Shown one piece after another: positions 44,917-56,974 of a stretch of 64,000 nt of DNA. The notes under the pieces were generated by a model. The model did no database searches and was not told the DNA's origin. It saw only the letters and a program-made list of their open reading frames with translations. Position 1 is the stretch's first letter; each line of letters opens with the position of its first letter. The position numbers were made by a program, and so were the translations under genes. Origin of the DNA: Shinella zoogloeoides (GTDB lineage: Bacteria > Pseudomonadota > Alphaproteobacteria > Rhizobiales > Rhizobiaceae); assembly GCF_022682305.1 (NCBI RefSeq), contig NZ_CP093528.1, forward strand, positions 310,001-374,000, read 5' to 3'.

Positions 44917-46137
44917 ATGACGAGCATCCTCACCAACGCAGCAGCAATGTCTGCTCTCCAGACGCTGCGCTCCATCAACAACAACATGGACGAAACCCAG
45001 GCGCACGTCTCGACGGGCCTGCGCGTCGGCAGCGCGTCCGACAACGCCGCCTACTGGTCGATCGCAACGACCATGCGTTCCGACAACATGGCGCTTTCCG
45101 CCGTTCAGGACGCCCTCGGCCTCGGTGCGGCGAAGGTCGATACCGCCTATGCCGGTATGAATTCCTCGATCGACGTGGTCAAGGAAATCAAGAAGAAGCT
45201 GGTGACGGCAACGGAAGACGGCGTCGACAAGACCAAGATCAACGAAGAAATCAAGCAGCTCCAGGGCCAGCTCAAGAGCATCTCCGAAGCTGCTTCGTTC
45301 TCGGGTGAGAACTGGCTGGAAACCGACATCGCCAGCGGCGGCCCGGCCAACAAGGCAACGGTCGTTGCCTCCTTCGTCCGTAACGACCTCGGTGCGGTCT
45401 CGGTCAAGAAAGTCGATTACACGCTCGACGCAAATTCGGTGCTGTTCGACAAGTCCGGTGCCGATGCGGGTATCCTGGACCAGATGAACAGCCTTGGCTC
45501 CGATAGCATCGTCGTCAACGTCAATACGGGCGGCACGGTCGCTGCCGTCAACGTGAAGAAGTTCACGACGGCTGAAGTCAGCACTGCCGTCACCGGTGCA
45601 ACCGGCGGCTTCGATGCAGGCGGCAACATCGCCTGGACGGTGGCTAGTGATGGCGCCGGTGCCGGTCGGGGCTTCGTCAAGATCGCTGATGACACCTGGG
45701 TTGCTGCAGAAGAGCAGGACAAGGGAGCCAACGACGGTCAGGAAACGTTTGCGACGGACGCCGGCACGAACCTCTGGAAGATCGATGTCACCAGCCCGTC
45801 TACTACTCCGACGGCGTCCGTATCGGGCTTCTCGATCAGCAACTCCACCACCGGCACGGAGTTGGACGCACTGATCCAGAACGTCGACAACGCGCTCAAG
45901 AGCATGACCAGCGCCGCTTCGGCTCTCGGTTCGATTTCTTCCCGTATCGGCCTGCAGGAAGAATTCGTTTCCCAGCTCAGCTCGGCCATCGACAAGGGCG
46001 TTGGCCGCCTGGTCGATGCAGACATGAACGAGGAATCGACCCGCCTGAAGGCCCTGCAGACCCAGCAGCAGCTCGCCATCCAGTCGCTGTCGATCGCCAA
46101 CAACGCATCGCAGAACGTTCTGTCGCTGTTCCGTTAA
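44917..46137 (+). CDS. flaA: Flagellin (FlaA type)
   Basis: The 406-residue filament subunit has the standard short rhizobial flagellin plan. The N-terminal D0/D1 is MTSILTNAAAMSALQTLRSI to LKSISEAASFSGENW. The surface-exposed middle (about 130-310) is rich in Thr, Ser, Val, Asp and Gly. The C-terminal D1/D0 ends in QTQQQLAIQSLSIANNASQN. Its ends are nearly identical to those of the next flagellin. The numerous surface Ser/Thr residues could be glycosylated. It follows fliP by 236 bases and is followed by a terminator. Confidence 0.95.
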   Translation: MTSILTNAAAMSALQTLRSINNNMDETQAHVSTGLRVGSASDNAAYWSIATTMRSDNMALSAVQDALGLGAAKVDTAYAGMNSSIDVVKEIKKKLVTATEDGVDKTKINEEIKQLQGQLKSISEAASFSGENWLETDIASGGPANKATVVASFVRNDLGAVSVKKVDYTLDANSVLFDKSGADAGILDQMNSLGSDSIVVNVNTGGTVAAVNVKKFTTAEVSTAVTGATGGFDAGGNIAWTVASDGAGAGRGFVKIADDTWVAAEEQDKGANDGQETFATDAGTNLWKIDVTSPSTTPTASVSGFSISNSTTGTELDALIQNVDNALKSMTSAASALGSISSRIGLQEEFVSQLSSAIDKGVGRLVDADMNEESTRLKALQTQQQLAIQSLSIANNASQNVLSLFR

Positions 46138-46217: not shown

Positions 46218-46488
46218 TAAACCCTGCACCACCTGCTCCTTCATCCTCCGGCCCGCCTCGAGCATGACGAAAGAGAGGGTTTGGTTCTGCGGCGACGGTT
46301 ATGGTTACCGCTCAGTGTATTTTCTCGCCCCGCTTAGCAGTTCGTTAACCATGAGCGCGTTACCTAGAACCATCGAAGCGACAAGCCGGCCTCAAGAATG
46401 ACAGGCCTGGCAAGCATGATGCTGGTTGGCGCTCCCGGTGGAACCCGGAATGTCCCTTCTCCTGAAGCCAATCAAGGGGCACCATTCA
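46218..46488 (+). promoter_or_regulatory. Promoter and leader of the second flagellin gene
   Basis: About 270 bases with no gene. A CtrA-type half-site TTAACCAT lies at 46345-46352, and GCATGATGC at 46414-46422 corresponds to the leader element of the other flagellin genes. AAGGGG nine bases before ATG 46489 is the ribosome site. Confidence 0.55.
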
Positions 46489-47691
46489 ATGACGAGCATT
46501 CTCACCAATGTTGCGGCTATGTCCGCTCTCCAGACGCTGCGGTCGATCGGTTCGGACATGGAAGACACGCAGGCGCGTGTTTCCTCCGGCCTGCGCGTCG
46601 GCGGCGCGTCCGACAACGCCGCCTATTGGTCGATCGCGACGACCATGCGCTCCGACAACATGGCGCTTTCCGCCGTTCAGGACGCCCTCGGCCTCGGTGC
46701 CGCGAAGGTCGATACCGCCTATGCCGGTATGAACTCTTCGATCGAAGTCGTGAAGGAAATCAAGAAGAAGCTGGTTGCCGCCACGGAAGACGGCGTCGAC
46801 AAGACCAAGATCCAGGAAGAAATCTCCCAGCTTCAGGACCAGCTCAAGAGCATTTCCGAAGCCGCTTCCTTCTCCGGCGAGAACTGGCTTGAAGCCAATG
46901 TAGGCGACCAGACGAGCGTCGTCGCCTCCTTCGTCCGCGACAGCGGCGGTGCTGTTTCGGTCAAGAAGGTCAACTATGACCTTACGGTAGACAACGTTCT
47001 GTTCGACAAGGGCGGTAATACCGGTATCCTCGACCAGACGCAAAACATTGCCGGCGACGGCGTTGTGGTCAACGTCAACACGAACGGCACGACTGCTCCC
47101 GTAAACGTGCCGAAATTCACGTCCGCAGAGGTCAGCGATGCCGTGACGCTCGCAGGCGGCAGCTTCGATGCCGGCGGCAAGATTGCCTGGACCACGGTCG
47201 GCGACGGCGCTGGCGCCGGTATCGGTTACGTTAAGGTTGCCGATGACGTCTGGGTCGCCGCTAAAGAACAGGATCTGGGCGCGAACAACGGCCAGGAAGC
47301 CTTCGCCAAGGATGCCACCAACTTCCTCTGGCAAGTTGATACGACCGTTCCCGCAGGCTCCACGGCGGAATCCGTTTCGGAATTCTCGATCGACGGCACG
47401 ACCACCGGCGCACAGCTCGACGGCCTGATCACGCTGGTTGACGAAGCCCTCGGCAAGATGACCTCCGCCGCCGCCGACCTCGGCTCCATGGCGATGCGCA
47501 TCGGCCTGCAGGAAGACTTCGTCTCCAAGCTGACCGACTCCATCGACTCGGGCGTTGGCCGTCTCGTGGACGCCGACATGAACGAGGAATCGACCCGCCT
47601 GAAGGCCCTGCAGACCCAGCAGCAGCTCGCCATCCAGTCGCTGTCGATCGCCAACTCGGCTTCGGAAAGCATCCTCACGCTCTTCCGTTAA
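46489..47691 (+). CDS. flaB: Flagellin (FlaB type)
   Basis: The 400-residue flagellin is a close paralogue of the first: MTSILTNVAAMSALQTLRSI at the start and LQTQQQLAIQSLSIANSASE near the end. The two differ mainly in the variable middle (for example VNVNTNGTTAPVNVPKFTSA). The start at 46489 is set by homology and by AAGGGG upstream. A terminator follows 30 bases after the stop, so each flagellin has its own transcript. Confidence 0.95.
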   Translation: MTSILTNVAAMSALQTLRSIGSDMEDTQARVSSGLRVGGASDNAAYWSIATTMRSDNMALSAVQDALGLGAAKVDTAYAGMNSSIEVVKEIKKKLVAATEDGVDKTKIQEEISQLQDQLKSISEAASFSGENWLEANVGDQTSVVASFVRDSGGAVSVKKVNYDLTVDNVLFDKGGNTGILDQTQNIAGDGVVVNVNTNGTTAPVNVPKFTSAEVSDAVTLAGGSFDAGGKIAWTTVGDGAGAGIGYVKVADDVWVAAKEQDLGANNGQEAFAKDATNFLWQVDTTVPAGSTAESVSEFSIDGTTTGAQLDGLITLVDEALGKMTSAAADLGSMAMRIGLQEDFVSKLTDSIDSGVGRLVDADMNEESTRLKALQTQQQLAIQSLSIANSASESILTLFR

Positions 47692-47750: not shown

Positions 47751-50950
<3,200 letters not shown>

Positions 50951-51060
50951 GACATCCTGCGGCAAGGGGCCTGCTGGCCGGGCTGTTGAACGGACTCTGG
51001 ATGAGCTCGTCCGCCTTGCTATCGGAGTTGACTTGCGTCGGGCTGGTCGCCGGGAAGGGG

Positions 51061-51103: not shown

Positions 51104-54100
51104 TTAGACCGTCTTGTAGGCCTGGATGATGGCTTCGACCTGCGCCGTGTTCATCGCGGCGACCTGCTCGGCCTTCAGAGCCCGGACCTGGGCGGAGCTC
51201 AGGGCAAGGATGTCTTCCGTGGCGAGGCCGGCAATCGCCTTGGCGCTGATGGCGGCCAGTTCGTCGGTGGTGAAGGTCTTGATCTCGTCCGCGCTCAGGG
51301 CCTGCAGGACGGCGGCGGTGAGGCCGGCGATCTGCGTGCTGTTGAGGGCCTCGACCTGGGTCGAGGAGAGAGCCGCGACCTGGCTGGAGCTGAGGCCATT
51401 GAGCTGCTTGGCGTCGAGAGCCGCAACCTGCGTGGTGCTGAGTGATGCGACCTGGCCGGTCGTCAGGCCGGCGAGCTGCTTGGCCGAGAGGGCCGCGAGC
51501 TTGTCGGAACTGAGCGAGTTGAGCTGGGCGCTGTCGAGGGCGCCGAGCTGTGCCGAGGAGAGCGCCGCGATCTGCTTGGTGTTGAGCGCGGCGAGCTTGT
51601 CGGTGCCAAGGCCTGCGAGGGCCGCAGCTTCAAGGCCTGCGATCGCCTTGTCGGAGATGGCGGCCAGTTCGCTGGAGGAGAACAGGGCCAGTTCCGCGGA
51701 GTCGATGGTCTTGAGGGCAGCGGCGCCGAGGGCGGCGATCTGCGAGGAGGTCAGAGCCTCGATCTGAGCGGTGTTCAGGGCAGCGGCCTGCGACGTCGTC
51801 AGAGCTGCGATCTGCTTGGCGCCGAGCGAAGCGACCTGATCGGTGCTGAGGCCAGCCACCTGACCAGTCGTCAGGCCAGCGATCTGCTTGGCGGACAGCG
51901 CGCCAAGCTTATCGGAGCTGAGCGAGTTGAGCTGAGCGCTGCTGAGGGCGCCGAGCTGAGCCGAGGAGAGGGCCGCGATCTGCTTGGTGTTGAGCGCAGC
52001 GAGCTTGTCGGTTGTCAGGCTTGCCAGAGCGGCGCTGTCGAGACCGGCGATCGCCTTATCGGAGATGGCGGCGAGTTCGTCGGTGGCGAACAGGGCCAGT
52101 TCCGCCGAGTCGATGGTCTTGAGAGCAGCGGCGCCGAGGGCGGCGATCTGCGAGGAGGTGAGGGCTTCGACCTGAGCAGTGTTCAGAGCAGCGGCCTGTG
52201 CGGTGGTGAAGGCTGCGATTTGCTTTGCACCGAGCGAAGCGACCTGCGTGGTGCTGAGGCCGGCGACCTGGCCGGTCGTCAGACCCGCGATCTGCTTGGC
52301 GGAGAGAGCGCCGAGCTTATCGGAGCTGAGCGAGTTGACCTGGGCACTGCTGAGGGCGCCGAGCTGAGCCGAGGAGAGCGCCGCGATCTGCTTGGTGTTG
52401 AGCGCGGCGAGCTTGTCGGTGGTCAGGCTTGCCAGAGCGGCGCTGTCGAGACCGGCGATGGCCTTATCGGAGATGGCGGCCAGTTCGCTGGTGGAGAACA
52501 GGGCCAGTTCCGCGGAGTCGATGGTCTTGAGGGCAGCGGTGCCGAGCGCAGCAACCTGCGAGGAGGTCAGAGCCTCGACCTGGGCGGTGCTCAGGGCGGC
52601 GGCCTGTGCCGTCGTCAGGGCGGCGATCTGCTTGGCGCCGAGCGAAGCGACCTGATCGGTGCTGAGGCCAGCCACCTGGCCGGTGGTCAGGCCGGCAAGC
52701 TGCTTGGCGGAGAGGGCGCCGAGCTTGTCGGAGCTGAGCGAGTTGAGCTGAGCGCTGCTGAGCGCGCCGAGCTGAGCCGAGGAGAGGGCCGCGATCTGCT
52801 TGGTGTTCAGGGCCGCGAGCTTGTCGGTTGTCAGGCTTGCCAGAGCGGCGCTGTCGAGACCGGCGATGGCCTTGTCGGAGATGGCGGCCAGTTCGCTGGT
52901 GGAGAACAGGGCCAGTTCCGCGGAGTCGATGGTCTTGAGGGCAGCGGTGCCGAGCGCAGCAACCTGCGAGGAGGTCAGAGCCTCGACCTGGGCGGTGCTC
53001 AGGGCGGCGGCCTGTGCCGTCGTCAGGGCGGCGATCTGCTTGGCGCCGAGCGAAGCGACCTGATCGGTGCTGAGGCCAGCCACCTGGCCGGTCGTCAGGC
53101 CCGCGATCTGCTTGGCAGAGAGAGCCGCAAGCTTATCGGAGCTGAGCGAGTTGAGCTGGGCGCTGCTGAGGGCGCCGAGCTGTGCCGACGAAAGAGCTGC
53201 GATCTGCTTGGTGTTCAGGGCTGCAAGCTTGTCGGTTGTCAGGCTTGCCAGAGCGGCGCTGTCGAGACCTGCAATCGCCTTGTCGGAGATGGCGGCCAGT
53301 TCGCTGGAGGAGAACAGGGCCAGTTCCGCGGAGTCGATGGTCTTGAGGGCAGCGGCGCTGAGCGCGGCGACCTGCGAGGAGGTGAGGGCTTCGACCTGAG
53401 CCGTGCTCAGGGCCGCAGCCTGCGCCGTCGTCATGGCGGCGATCTGCTTGGCGCCGAGCGAGGCGACCTGTTCGGTGCTGAGACCGGCAATCTGGCCGGT
53501 CGTCAGGCCGGTAAGCTGCTTGGCGGACAGCGCGCCGAGCTTATCGGAGCTCAGCGAGTTGATCTGGGCGCTGCTGAGAGCACCGAGCTGCGCCGACGAA
53601 AGGGCCGCGATCTGCTTGGTGTTGAGCGCAGCGAGCTTGTCGGTGGTCAGGCTTGCCAGAGCGGCACTGTCGAGACCTGCAATCGCCTTGTCGGAGATGG
53701 CGGCGAGTTCGCTGGTGGAGAACAGGGCCAGTTCCGCCGAGTCGATGGTCTTGAGGGCAGCTGCGCCGAGGGCGGCGATCTGCGAGGAGGTGAGGGCTTC
53801 GACCTGGGCGGTGTTCAGCGCAGCGGCCTGTGCGGTGGTGAAGGCTGCGATCTGCTTTGCACCGAGCGAAGCGACCTGCGTGGTGCTGAGGCCGGCGACC
53901 TGGCCGGTCGTCAGGCCGGCAAGCTGCTTGGCGGAGAGGACGCCGAGCTTGTCGGAGCTGAGCGAGTTGAGCTGCGTGCTGCTGAGAGCACCGAGCTGTG
54001 CGGAGGAGAGTGCTGCCATCTGCTTGGTGTTGAGCGCGGCGAGCTTGTCGGTGCCGAGGCTTGCGAGGGCAGCGGTTTCGAGACCTGCGATCGCCTTGTC

Positions 54101-54943
54101 GGAGATGGCGGCAAGTTCGTCGGTAGAGAACAGGGCCAGTTCCGCGGAGTCGATGGTCTTGAGGGCAGCGGCGCTGAGCGCGGCAACCTGCGAGGAGGTC
54201 AGAGCCTCGACCTGGGCGGTGTTCAGGGCGGCGGCCTGCGCGGTGGTGAAGGCTGCGATCTGCTTGGCGCCGAGCGAGGCGACCTGCGTGGTGCTGAGGC
54301 CGGCAATCTGGCCGGTGCTGACGCCGGCGAGCTGCTTGGCGGAGAGGGCGGCGATCTTGTCCGTGCCGAGCGAGGTGAGCTGGGCGCTGGTCAGCGCGTT
54401 GAGCTGGCTCGAGGAGAGGGCTGCGATCTGCTTGGTGGTCAGCGCGGCAAGCTTGTCGGTGCCAAGGCTTGCGACGGTGGCGGTGGTGAGGCCGGCGATG
54501 GCCTTGTCGGAAATGGCGGCGACTTCGTCCGTGGAGAACAGGGCGATTTCAGCCGAATCGAAGGTCGTGAAGACGTCATAGCCAAGGGAGGCGATCTGCG
54601 TCGCGGAGAGCGCGCTGACTTCGTCGGTCGTGAAGGTGGCAACCTGCGCGCTGGTGAGCGAAGCGGCCTGCTTGGCAGTGAGGCCGGCGATATGGCCGGA
54701 ATCGAGAGCGGCCATCTGGGTGGCGCTCAGGCCCTTCAGCGCCGTCGCGGTGATCGCGCTGATCTGGCTGGAGGTGAAGGAGACCAGGCTGGTCGAGGTG
54801 AAAGCGTTGAGCTGTGCGGAGGAGAGCGCTGCCACCTTGTCGGAGGTCAAGGCCGCGACATCCTCGGTGTTGAGCGTCTGAATCGTCGCTGTGGCGAGAT
54901 TCTTGATCTGGCTGGCGGTCAGATTGGAAATAATTGAAGTCAT
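51104..54943 (-). CDS. Giant octapeptide-repeat protein, function unknown
   Basis: The 1,279-residue protein consists of five residues (MTSII), 159 consecutive octapeptides without a single insertion or deletion, and two final residues. The octad consensus is [AG]-A-L-[ST]-[ST]-x-Q-[LIV], for example AALSTAQV and GALSSAQL. Leu or another hydrophobic residue is fixed at position 3 and an aliphatic at position 8. A higher order of 17 octads (136 residues) repeats through most of the chain. There is no signal peptide, Cys, RTX motif or membrane helix. ATG 54943 has AAGGG upstream. Composition suggests a rigid solenoid or fibre, perhaps exported. I do not recognise a family. Confidence 0.85.
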   Translation of the reverse strand: MTSIISNLTASQIKNLATATIQTLNTEDVAALTSDKVAALSSAQLNAFTSTSLVSFTSSQISAITATALKGLSATQMAALDSGHIAGLTAKQAASLTSAQVATFTTDEVSALSATQIASLGYDVFTTFDSAEIALFSTDEVAAISDKAIAGLTTATVASLGTDKLAALTTKQIAALSSSQLNALTSAQLTSLGTDKIAALSAKQLAGVSTGQIAGLSTTQVASLGAKQIAAFTTAQAAALNTAQVEALTSSQVAALSAAALKTIDSAELALFSTDELAAISDKAIAGLETAALASLGTDKLAALNTKQMAALSSAQLGALSSTQLNSLSSDKLGVLSAKQLAGLTTGQVAGLSTTQVASLGAKQIAAFTTAQAAALNTAQVEALTSSQIAALGAAALKTIDSAELALFSTSELAAISDKAIAGLDSAALASLTTDKLAALNTKQIAALSSAQLGALSSAQINSLSSDKLGALSAKQLTGLTTGQIAGLSTEQVASLGAKQIAAMTTAQAAALSTAQVEALTSSQVAALSAAALKTIDSAELALFSSSELAAISDKAIAGLDSAALASLTTDKLAALNTKQIAALSSAQLGALSSAQLNSLSSDKLAALSAKQIAGLTTGQVAGLSTDQVASLGAKQIAALTTAQAAALSTAQVEALTSSQVAALGTAALKTIDSAELALFSTSELAAISDKAIAGLDSAALASLTTDKLAALNTKQIAALSSAQLGALSSAQLNSLSSDKLGALSAKQLAGLTTGQVAGLSTDQVASLGAKQIAALTTAQAAALSTAQVEALTSSQVAALGTAALKTIDSAELALFSTSELAAISDKAIAGLDSAALASLTTDKLAALNTKQIAALSSAQLGALSSAQVNSLSSDKLGALSAKQIAGLTTGQVAGLSTTQVASLGAKQIAAFTTAQAAALNTAQVEALTSSQIAALGAAALKTIDSAELALFATDELAAISDKAIAGLDSAALASLTTDKLAALNTKQIAALSSAQLGALSSAQLNSLSSDKLGALSAKQIAGLTTGQVAGLSTDQVASLGAKQIAALTTSQAAALNTAQIEALTSSQIAALGAAALKTIDSAELALFSSSELAAISDKAIAGLEAAALAGLGTDKLAALNTKQIAALSSAQLGALDSAQLNSLSSDKLAALSAKQLAGLTTGQVASLSTTQVAALDAKQLNGLSSSQVAALSSTQVEALNSTQIAGLTAAVLQALSADEIKTFTTDELAAISAKAIAGLATEDILALSSAQVRALKAEQVAAMNTAQVEAIIQAYKTV
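51681..54536 (-). repeat. Seven full 408-bp tandem periods inside the octapeptide-repeat gene
   Basis: The marker AACAGGGCCAGTTCCGC (with small variations) occurs at 51681, 52089, 52497, 52905, 53313 and 53721, then at 54129, always exactly 408 bases apart; a degenerate copy with AACAGGGCGATTTC begins at 54537. Each period encodes 17 octapeptides. More diverged periods continue on both sides. The uniform length shows repeated duplication followed by selection against frameshift and for octad phase. Confidence 0.95.
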
Positions 54944-55696
54944 GGACGCGCGCCCTTGTTCTAGCGGATCTGGTCGACGTCGTCTTCGTGCCACCGACCG
55001 TGCGGGAAGAGTTGGCTCTTCTCCTCGGGTCCCCAAGCGCCTTGCGCTGGCCGTCGTACCGCTCGGTCGGGCGCCAATTGCGGGCGCTTACGCTCCGGAC
55101 GTCCGGTTGGACGAAAACTATGTCAATTGAAACATGGCTCGAACGAGCCAGCGCATCGGAAGGGCATCATGCGCGGAAGCCGAAGCGGCTCCGATCCCTA
55201 CGCCATTTGGTCACAAACGCCTTGCATCGGCTGTGCTGTGTCAGGGGGAGCCACCGGAACGCACAGAGTGCCCCATTACTCCCCTTTTCGACCAAGGCCA
55301 GTTCTAAACCGGCAGCTTTTAATTTTAGGTTAACAGGCCTCGTAGGAGTTGCAATCTCGGCCCGCCGTTTCGCCCGGTAAACCGGACCGTGCCGATGGAT
55401 ATCGACAGGCCCGCAAAACCCCTCGATTGTCAGGGGGAATGGCCGGATTGCCATCTTGCGGATACATGGACGAGGCCAGATCTGGTCATCGGAAATTTAC
55501 GATTTCTTCAATTTCCTTTACACGCGCCGGCGGCGTTAACCATTTGTTAACCATTTCTCGTTAACCAATTGTTAAGAACGATGGATCGGCGCCCAGGGCA
55601 AACAGGCGGCGCCGAATGCATGACGCCCCCTGTCGTTACCGGTCCCCGCCTCACTCCGGCATGTCCCCGACAATCTCCTTTTCAGGGCAAGTGCCA
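54944..55696. promoter_or_regulatory. Long divergent region between the repeat gene and the third flagellin gene
   Basis: This 753-base gap is more AT-rich than its neighbours and holds no convincing gene. At 55536-55575 TTAACCATTTG and relatives are repeated, giving two perfect TTAA-N7-TTAA CtrA-type boxes (55536-55550 and 55561-55575). GCATGA at 55618, 79 bases before the flagellin start, matches the leader element of the other flagellin genes. The promoter of the repeat gene should lie near 54950-55150 on the minus strand, but I cannot define it. Confidence 0.6.
55536..55575 (+). promoter_or_regulatory. Double CtrA-type box upstream of the third flagellin gene
   Basis: Two perfect TTAA-N7-TTAA sites occur within 40 bases: spacer CCATTTG at 55540-55546 and spacer CCAATTG at 55565-55571. 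Two copies of the extended half-site TTAACCAT and one TTAACCAA are included. Protein binding is inferred from the CtrA consensus of alphaproteobacteria. Confidence 0.6.
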
Positions 55697-56974
55697 ATGA
55701 CCAGCATTTTGACCAACTCCGCCGCCATGGCAGCGCTGCAGACCTTGCGCAGCATCGACAACGGCCTCGAAACCACCCAGGCGCGCGTTTCCTCGGGCCT
55801 GCGGGTCGAGAACGCCTCCGACAACGCCGCCTATTGGTCGATCGCGACCACGATGCGCTCCGACAATCGGGCGCTTTCCACGGTGGCCGACGCGCTCGGC
55901 CTCGGCGCCGCGAAGGTCGACACCGCCTATGCCGCGATGGAAAGCGCGATCGAGACGGTGAAGGAGATCAAAGCCAAGCTCGTCGCCGCCTATGGCGTCG
56001 GCACCGACCGCGCCAAGATCCAGGAAGAGATCACCCAGCTCCAGAACCAGCTCCGCAGTATTTCCGAATCCGCCTCCTTCTCCGGCGAGAACTGGCTGCA
56101 GGGCGTCATCAGCAACGGCGCCACGCCGCCCGTCGAGCGGCCGATCACCAAGCAGGTCGTCGCCTCCTTCATCCGCACCTCCTCCGGGCAGGTCGCCGTC
56201 ACGACGGTGGACTATCCGCTCGATTCCAAAACCGTTCTCTTCGACCAAAGCGGCGGCAAGTTCGGTGTCCTCGACAAGGAGGCCGGCTTCCTTTCGGAGA
56301 AGGAGGTTGCCGTCTCCATCGAGGAAACGGACGGTGCAGGGGATGTCGCGACCAAGAAATATGCCGTCGCCAGCTACACCAATGCGGACCTCGCCGTGAA
56401 GGGGCCGACGACGGGGAGCGATCCGCGCGTCTACGAGGTATCCGGCGAATTCTATCTGAAGATTGCCGACGATAGCTGGGTCGAGGTCACGACGACCGAT
56501 CCGAGCATCGGGGGCGGCACCACGACCGCGGCCTACGACAACGGCACGCCCTATTATGCGGTCGCCACTGCCGCAAACGACATGGACAGCCGCTCCCTCG
56601 GCTTCTCCGTCGCCACGCTCGACATCAACAAGCTGCTCGATCTCGCCACCACGATGGGCGGTATGACGGGCCAGACCTATGTCGAGGTCGATGTGCTCGA
56701 CGTGATGACGCGCTTCGTGGACCAGCAGCTCCTCGCCATGACGAGCGCGGCCTCCTCGCTCGGCTCCATCCAGAGCCGTATCGGCCTGCAGGAGGATTTC
56801 GTCGCCACGCTTGTCGACGTGATCGACAAGGGTATCGGCCGCCTGGTCGATGCGGACATGAACGAGGAATCCACGCGCCTCAAGGCGCTGCAGACCCAGC
56901 AGCAGCTCGGCATCCAGTCGCTCTCGATCGCCAATTCGAGCGCCGAGAACATTCTCCAGCTCTTCCGCCAGTAA
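55697..56974 (+). CDS. flaC: Flagellin, divergent third copy
   Basis: The 425-residue flagellin shares the termini of the other two (MTSILTNSAAMAALQTLRSI; KALQTQQQLGIQSLSIANSS) but differs more in the conserved helices (SDNRALSTVADALGLGAAKV, EIKAKLVAAYGVGTDRAKIQ) and has a longer middle with Thr-rich stretches (TTDPSIGGGTTTAAYDNG). ATG 55697 is set by homology. Rhizobial filaments usually contain a major and several minor flagellins; this one may be minor. It follows the insert that separates it from its paralogues. The symbol follows gene position in related species. Confidence 0.94.
   Translation: MTSILTNSAAMAALQTLRSIDNGLETTQARVSSGLRVENASDNAAYWSIATTMRSDNRALSTVADALGLGAAKVDTAYAAMESAIETVKEIKAKLVAAYGVGTDRAKIQEEITQLQNQLRSISESASFSGENWLQGVISNGATPPVERPITKQVVASFIRTSSGQVAVTTVDYPLDSKTVLFDQSGGKFGVLDKEAGFLSEKEVAVSIEETDGAGDVATKKYAVASYTNADLAVKGPTTGSDPRVYEVSGEFYLKIADDSWVEVTTTDPSIGGGTTTAAYDNGTPYYAVATAANDMDSRSLGFSVATLDINKLLDLATTMGGMTGQTYVEVDVLDVMTRFVDQQLLAMTSAASSLGSIQSRIGLQEDFVATLVDVIDKGIGRLVDADMNEESTRLKALQTQQQLGIQSLSIANSSAENILQLFRQ

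Follow-up and report, generated by a model that had tools for sequence, protein, structure and literature searches.

An octad-repeat protein of the ALTTAQ family in Shinella zoogloeoides is likely O-glycosylated by an adjacent OGT-type enzyme

We analyzed a 64,000-nucleotide stretch of the Shinella zoogloeoides genome (contig NZ_CP093528.1, positions 310,001 to 374,000; referred to here as the window), in which a minus-strand gene (51104..54943) encodes P0001, an ALTTAQ-family protein of 1,279 amino acids built from 159 octapeptides in one register. On balance, the evidence favors a rod that is O-glycosylated by the tetratricopeptide repeat (TPR)-containing glycosyltransferase of family GT41 encoded beside it and that is probably exported. 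The gene lies among flagellin genes, and the earlier sequence-only reading of this DNA had suggested a role for the protein at the cell surface or in association with a filament. Comparison of related genomes points instead to the adjacent TPR-GT41 enzyme, together with a UDP-galactopyranose mutase (Glf), as the better-supported closest partner of P0001.

Identity and architecture of P0001

P0001 belongs to the ALTTAQ-repeat family PF20080. It matched the Pfam profile with an E value of 1.1e-218 and 707.1 bits, against a curated cut-off of 26.4, over 44 stretches, and tandem octads were found at 159/159 positions. The earlier statement that this unit had no named family was therefore not borne out. 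Other names attached to P0001 (CAAP1, DUF5440, LRR_EndoS, and DUF4351) were dismissed as octad look-alikes because they rested on a summed score with no single matching stretch. Leucine-rich-repeat hits in a PDB search with P0001 were likewise taken as octad look-alikes, and the NCBIfam matches of P0001 were all below their cut-offs. P0001 shares its octad with other PF20080 members. Unlike the distant members, it consists of octads only, keeps one register, shows a 17-octad super-period, and carries Ser or Thr where those proteins often carry Pro or Ala. Among 14 control genomes, only that of Caulobacter vibrioides matched PF20080. A literature search found no description of ALTTAQ/PF20080, of HeliScrew (the PDB match discussed below), or of the pairing of ALTTAQ proteins with GT41 enzymes, most subscription papers lying outside its reach.

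The reading frame starts with an ATG at 54943 and includes its stop codon. The sequence-only reading had described this frame correctly but had given no strand, and its account of the chain as 5 + 159 x 8 + 2 residues with an unbroken octad phase was confirmed. In the leucine-first register the consensus is L-[ST]-[TS]-x-Q-[LIV]-A-A. Every one of the 159 octads has L, I, F, M, or V in the hydrophobic column, compared with at most 37.5% for the best phase among 2,000 shuffles. An in-register octad rule selected P0001 alone among the 268 open reading frames (ORFs) of at least 110 amino acids in the window, and it picked 0 of 5,492 shuffled ORFs. Serine and threonine together account for 300 of the 1,279 residues. 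The protein contains no Pro, Cys, or Trp and only 2 N-x-S/T sites, and its computed pI is 4.7.

Above the octad, Tandem Repeats Finder reported an array of 17-octad units (408 bp, 136 residues) inside the gene (51404..54570, minus strand), with 7.8 copies, 88% matches, and 0% indels. The super-period noticed earlier was thus recovered in the gene, and it recurred in the octad-similarity peaks of relatives described below. Compared with its equal-length counterpart in the nearest genome (L038), the gene showed a nonsynonymous divergence (dN) of 0.044 and a synonymous divergence (dS) of 0.341, with shifted frames reversing the pattern, and the 15 pairs formed by six internal units gave 0.040 and 0.393, respectively. 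As dN/dS is about 0.1 and the shifted frames show the reverse, the frame is translated and under purifying selection. The possibility that it is not translated, which had been named as grounds for doubt, was addressed in this way.

The adjacent GT41 enzyme and its linkage to ALTTAQ genes

Downstream of the P0001 gene and on the same strand lies the gene for a TPR-GT41 glycosyltransferase of the O-GlcNAc transferase (OGT) type (48902..50965, minus strand), the proposed modifier of P0001. It is followed by the gene for Glf (47751..48905, minus strand), which shares 4 bases with the end of the GT41 gene and would supply the donor sugar. The GT41 enzyme matched PF13844 (Glyco_transf_41) with an E value of 6.9e-70, and N-terminal TPR models scored above cut-off. 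It is closer to OGT of known structure (E, 3e-114) and SPINDLY (3e-79) than to HMW1C-like enzymes (6e-6), and by this comparison it is an OGT-type, putative O-glycosyltransferase. The start of its gene is uncertain, with a TTG at 50965 and several homologues starting nearer an internal ATG.

Linkage was assessed in the best 80 of 253 loci of the GT41 subfamily, drawn from Shinella, Rhizobium, Sinorhizobium, Neorhizobium, Agrobacterium, and their kin. An ALTTAQ ORF was present in the fetched flanks of 69 of the 80 loci (55 of the 60 loci whose flanks were complete), against a rough chance expectation of about 0.8. The 11 loci without a nearby ALTTAQ frame all came from genomes that carry PF20080 matches. 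When the neighbors of 84 Rhizobiaceae loci were clustered, with flagellar genes set aside, the GT41 enzyme was found at 81 loci, Glf at 67, and a 402-residue Methyltransf_FA-type protein at 26. These were followed by a short general ABC ATPase (16 loci, at a median of 6 kb from the ALTTAQ gene), a GalE-like epimerase (10 loci), and smaller groups. No exporter-sized ABC cluster was seen among the neighbor clusters of at least 5 loci. The Methyltransf_FA-type protein, of 402 to 427 residues, lies between GT41 and Glf at L039:14214-15497 and L128:3644-4852 and is possibly a second transferase. Its gene is missing between the GT41 and glf genes of the window.

Co-occurrence gave a similar picture. 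In a set of 61 genomes (that of the window and 60 relatives), with the GT41 subfamily defined by at least 49% identity to the window enzyme, PF20080 and the subfamily were present in exactly the same 24 genomes. Flagellin_N was present in 49 of the 61, of which 25 lacked both the ALTTAQ protein and the GT41 subfamily. One Shinella genome (G005) lacked both genes yet had 4 Flagellin_N matches. GT41 genes of other clades (at most 43% identity) did occur in genomes without ALTTAQ proteins, for example, G005, G021, G029, and G035. Across 247 genomes of the family, the GT41 subfamily (E up to 1e-120) was detected in 24 and ALTTAQ proteins in 34, at an E value of up to 1e-8 that may miss weaker members. 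All 24 fell within the 34. By genus the numbers were 12 of 109 and 19 of 109, and full nesting would have a probability of 1.6e-11 on the assumption, which does not hold, that genera are independent. In the genomes searched, the GT41 subfamily was thus found only where an ALTTAQ protein was also found. Of the 10 ALTTAQ genomes without the subfamily, 7 were fetched, and their ALTTAQ genes lay in varied places, one of them, by eye, about 6 kb from a pcm-tolC-like pair.

Hydroxyl content of the octads

The composition of the octads fits a substrate of the GT41 enzyme. At the residue two after the octad leucine, which is the first of the short helix, P0001 has Ser or Thr in 74% of octads and Pro in 0%. 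The window genome carries a second ALTTAQ gene of about 2,261 residues beside a GGDEF gene (L055:5998-12783, contig C2). In this unlinked paralogue the same position is Ser or Thr in 45% and Pro in 17%, and the 20 kb fetched around the gene yielded no GT41 call. In the larger protein type (type B), the mean Ser/Thr fraction at this position was 0.69 in 33 GT41-adjacent proteins and 0.33 in 4 nonadjacent ones, with no overlap. Protein types were assigned by pattern in this comparison, leaving 34 rows unassigned; the 3-kb pieces L001-L037, a mixture of linked and unlinked genes, were excluded, L055 was kept, and L148 was placed in the group with no GT41 nearby even though its genome has a GT41 elsewhere. 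A richer hydroxyl content two residues after the leucine was therefore shown for GT41-linked proteins in a small sample.

Loci outside the Rhizobiales and export

The non-Rhizobiales sample consisted of 4 loci with close GT41 kin, including Niveispirillum and Pseudoroseomonas, and 4 of the 12 plasmid records with GT41 kin were opened. At all 4 non-Rhizobiales loci, the ALTTAQ gene lies beside a GT41 gene and a relative of UDP-glucuronate decarboxylase. At 3 of them the pair is adjoined by an ABC transporter and an HlyD adaptor, and a second GT41 gene is present as well. The ABC and HlyD genes were seen at L150, L151, and L154 and were not seen at L155/L156. In Pseudoroseomonas the HlyD protein is annotated as type I secretion, and the ALTTAQ frame is broken. 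Broken ALTTAQ frames in several pieces (L151:1609-6696 and L051:5386-13537) may reflect decay or the assembly of repeats.

The type I transporter beside the non-Rhizobiales pair is the best hint that the ALTTAQ protein may be exported. Domain content provides a second line. A protein search with P0001, in which 7,994 candidates were scored, yielded 241 homologues; in the listed 120, an additional calpain domain is frequent, and some proteins have a haemagglutination-activity, haemolysin-type calcium-binding, or Ig-like domain. The latter three point to probable export of ALTTAQ proteins elsewhere. The exchange of Glf for a UDP-xylose-type enzyme suggests that different donors may serve the same architecture. 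A type I system common to Rhizobiaceae and Rhodospirillales was considered and rejected, as the transporter search matched 60 of the 61 genomes and did not discriminate. In three genomes with closer transporter kin (G046, G035, and G011), the 20 kb fetched around the transporter contained no called ALTTAQ frame.

Predicted fold and superhelical period

AlphaFold modeled residues 1-373 of P0001 with a pLDDT of 94.8 and a pTM of 0.83, placing 46 helices for 46 octads. P0001 is accordingly predicted to be a long, screw-like alpha-solenoid rod with one short helix per octad. The solenoid that had been proposed from the sequence is thus upheld as a prediction, with one octad per helical element, and the 17-octad period is supported. 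The accompanying argument, that the lack of any indel implies a strict geometric constraint, is weakened, since several homologues (e.g., L048, L055, L068, L072, and L102) shift the octad register.

The period was analyzed in 262 segments of Rhizobiaceae relatives, to which one protein may contribute more than one phase. Apart from near neighbors, octad similarity peaked at distances of 7, 10, 17, 24, 27, 34, 37, 41, 44, 51, 54, 58, 61, and 68 octads, which are the distances at which multiples of 3.4 fall near whole numbers. The similarity spectrum peaked at 3.40 octads, and at 3.39 in 135 more divergent segments. In 44 segments from 35 distant ALTTAQ proteins the strongest period was 2 octads (z, 47), followed by 3.39 (z, 9), while the 26 distant segments without the 2-octad period had an aggregate peak at 3.4 to 3.5 octads (z, 6.5). 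Two-octad alternation was seen, for instance, in the distant ALTTAQ proteins P0019, P0033, P0038, and P0049. From these periods we predict a superhelix of about 3.4 octads per turn (about 106 degrees per octad), in which 17 octads equal 5 turns. The closing of five turns by 17 octads would explain why length can change by whole 17-octad units: the lengths of homologues with 599, 1007, 1143, 1279, 1415, 1551, 1687, and 2639 residues all equal 136n + 55. Units could then be gained or lost without changing the orientation of the faces, so that rod length would vary between species while the surface pattern was kept.

The octad pattern of P0001 also matched HeliScrew4 (PDB 9zem) over 107 residues, with an E value of 8.9e-16, or 1.3e-28 when the family profile was used. 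Unlike P0001, HeliScrew4 is a Pro-Glu-rich octad protein of 120 residues that, judged by its name, is apparently engineered. It was absent from the fold-search results, an absence that carries no weight because the structure library used ends at 8 April 2026. Comparison of the P0001 model with mesothelin gave low global TM-scores of 0.19 to 0.34, normalized by query length. A turn of an armadillo solenoid takes about 42 residues and one of the octad rod about 27 to 29, and a sequence relation to the mesothelin and armadillo solenoids was not shown. Among viral structures, the best two matches were uncultured phage proteins, with an E value of 1.5e-6 and TM-scores below 0.2.

Flagellar location and alternative explanations

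Three flagellin genes surround the system in the window, at 44917..46137, 46486..47691, and 55694..56974, all on the plus strand, the last being divergent from the P0001 gene. All three products carry Flagellin_N and Flagellin_C, and P0001 carries neither. The expectation that homologues would be restricted to motility clusters fails: a flagellar setting was found for 14 of the 80 GT41 loci, whereas the other 66 are not flagellar, and an ALTTAQ gene accompanies 56 of them. On a GT41 tree of 88 rows, 16 of them flagellar, the flagellar location needs four changes (gains or losses), the minimum allowed by the well-supported branches of a tree built by a quick method with no bootstrap. The flagellar placements are the main Shinella clade, including a Pseudorhizobium plasmid; Shinella fusca; Ectorhizobium; and the Rhizobiales isolate AFS032198. 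On plasmid 5 of Pseudorhizobium flavum (L152), flagellins, flgE, a 1,143-residue ALTTAQ gene, the GT41 gene, and glf lie together. The repeated location could reflect a functional tie or an insertion hot spot. The surface part of the earlier inference is still plausible; its flagellar part gives way to the GT41 partnership, with a flagellar tie possible in view of the four changes.

Three other explanations were weighed. GT41 and Glf might glycosylate the neighboring flagellins, with the repeat protein a bystander, which we consider quite unlikely. The location among flagellins and the four changes to or from flagellin clusters speak for it, as do the following observations: the window genome has no GT41 match (E up to 0.001) other than the window enzyme; S. 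zoogloeoides PQ7 (L066) retains both GT41 and Glf in a flagellin cluster without the repeat gene; and FlmG, which modifies flagellins, combines TPR with a GT-B enzyme (PMC7591256). However, the 66 nonflagellar GT41 loci and the ALTTAQ genes beside 56 of them, as well as the absence of the subfamily from 25 of the 49 Flagellin_N genomes, speak against it. In addition, a different GT41 clade, with about 35% identity to the window enzyme, is found in or near some flagellin clusters (L119:2219-4210, G005:C37:74382-75527, and G003:C1:296859-298010), in L119 alongside a window-type GT41. This clade may be the one that glycosylates flagellins in Rhizobiaceae in the manner of FlmG. Still less probable is that P0001 leaves the cell through the flagellar type III apparatus and is itself flagellum associated, as a sheath, hair, or coat. 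Its position, the four location changes, and the resemblance of its start (MTSII) to that of flagellin (MTSIL) fit such a role, but it has no flagellin domain and most homologous loci are outside motility clusters. A flagellin-like N terminus as an export signal was rejected because MTSI-type starts are also common in copies far from flagellar genes and hence appear to be a feature of the family.

A third explanation, unlikely but less so than the two flagellar ones, keeps the repeat protein inside the cell as a structural or scaffold rod of the cytoplasm, with or without glycosylation. Such a location is consistent with the lack of an exported domain, of cysteine, and, by eye, of a signal-peptide-like start in P0001, with the lack of exporter-sized ABC genes among the neighbor clusters of at least 5 loci, and with the cytoplasmic activity of known GT41 enzymes (PMC3983070). 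Against it stand the ALTTAQ stretches elsewhere in proteins matching haemagglutination-activity, haemolysin-type calcium-binding, and Ig-like families and the type I transporter beside the ALTTAQ-GT41 pair at 3 of the 4 non-Rhizobiales loci.

Several observations weigh against glycosylation by the adjacent enzyme followed by export. The four location changes favor some link to the flagellum, and in two Shinella genomes (L066, and G003 at C1:277511-283615) the flagellin cluster leaves no room for an ALTTAQ gene between GT41 and the next flagellin. ALTTAQ proteins occur without the GT41 subfamily in 10 of 34 genomes, so not all ALTTAQ members can need GT41, and co-occurrence counts from related genomes are not independent. 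The Ser/Thr contrast involves few unlinked proteins, and kinship may contribute to it. The flanks of 15 of the 80 GT41 loci, some of them incomplete, yielded no Glf, and its replacement by a UDP-xylose-type enzyme outside the Rhizobiales leaves the sugar unsure. With regard to export, no exporter was recognized by eye in the gene list near P0001 in Shinella, a Pfam scan of P0001 gave no exported-domain match, and the Rhodospirillales-type transporter matches the window genome at only about 30%, as it does nearly all genomes (60 of 61). The regular geometry has exceptions beyond the register shifts: the 2-octad period outweighs the 3.4-octad one among distant ALTTAQ proteins, which vary individually, several having other main periods, some near 4 or 5. 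Homologues of 1335, 1359, 1439, 1503, and 1711 residues deviate from 136n + 55, and many homologue lengths do not leave a remainder of 7 modulo 8.

Proposed mechanism and comparison with known systems

In the mechanism that we favor, the TPR-GT41 enzyme would glycosylate P0001 in the cytoplasm on its many Ser and Thr residues, probably with a galactose-type sugar supplied via the product of the adjacent Glf. The glycosylated protein would then be exported to the cell surface, where it may act as a rod, for example, in adhesion or as a coat.

Modification of an exported protein by a GT41-like enzyme of the cytoplasm has precedents. HMW1 is glycosylated in the cytoplasm by an adjacent GT41 before its export, and HMW1C-HMW1 and EtpC-EtpA are both described in this sense in PMC3983070. 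FlmG of Caulobacter, a cytoplasmic TPR plus GT-B O-glycosyltransferase acting on flagellin, provides a further precedent (PMC7591256). The HMW1-HMW1C and EtpA-EtpC pairs resemble P0001 and its GT41 in combining a large protein with an adjacent GT41 enzyme. However, HMW1C is N-linking, has no TPR, and belongs to a two-partner secretion system, whereas the window enzyme is of the OGT type with TPR, and P0001, unlike the HMW1 and Etp adhesins, has no PF05860 (TpsA haemagglutination-activity) domain and few N-x-S/T sites. FlmG and the window enzyme share the combination of TPR with a GT-B-type enzyme. They differ in that the window enzyme tracks ALTTAQ proteins rather than flagellins and is linked to the sugar gene glf, pseudaminic acid being the sugar transferred by FlmG.

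A more specific proposal is possible but doubtful. The protein would be a surface rod whose length changes in exact five-turn steps and which is densely O-glycosylated by a dedicated OGT-type enzyme, using UDP-galactofuranose in Rhizobiaceae and UDP-xylose in Rhodospirillales, with the screw pitch placing the glycans on fixed faces. If true, such a glycoprotein system would be of a new kind, and its enzymes would be the first GT41 members to use these donors.

Overall, the ALTTAQ family, for which no described function was found, now has a partner enzyme and a probable source of sugar, and one branch also has a probable exporter. If the GT41 enzyme uses UDP-galactofuranose or UDP-xylose on protein, the donor range known for OGT-type enzymes would be widened. 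The match between the 17-octad genetic unit and five turns of the superhelix would be a clear example of a duplication unit set by the geometry of the fold.

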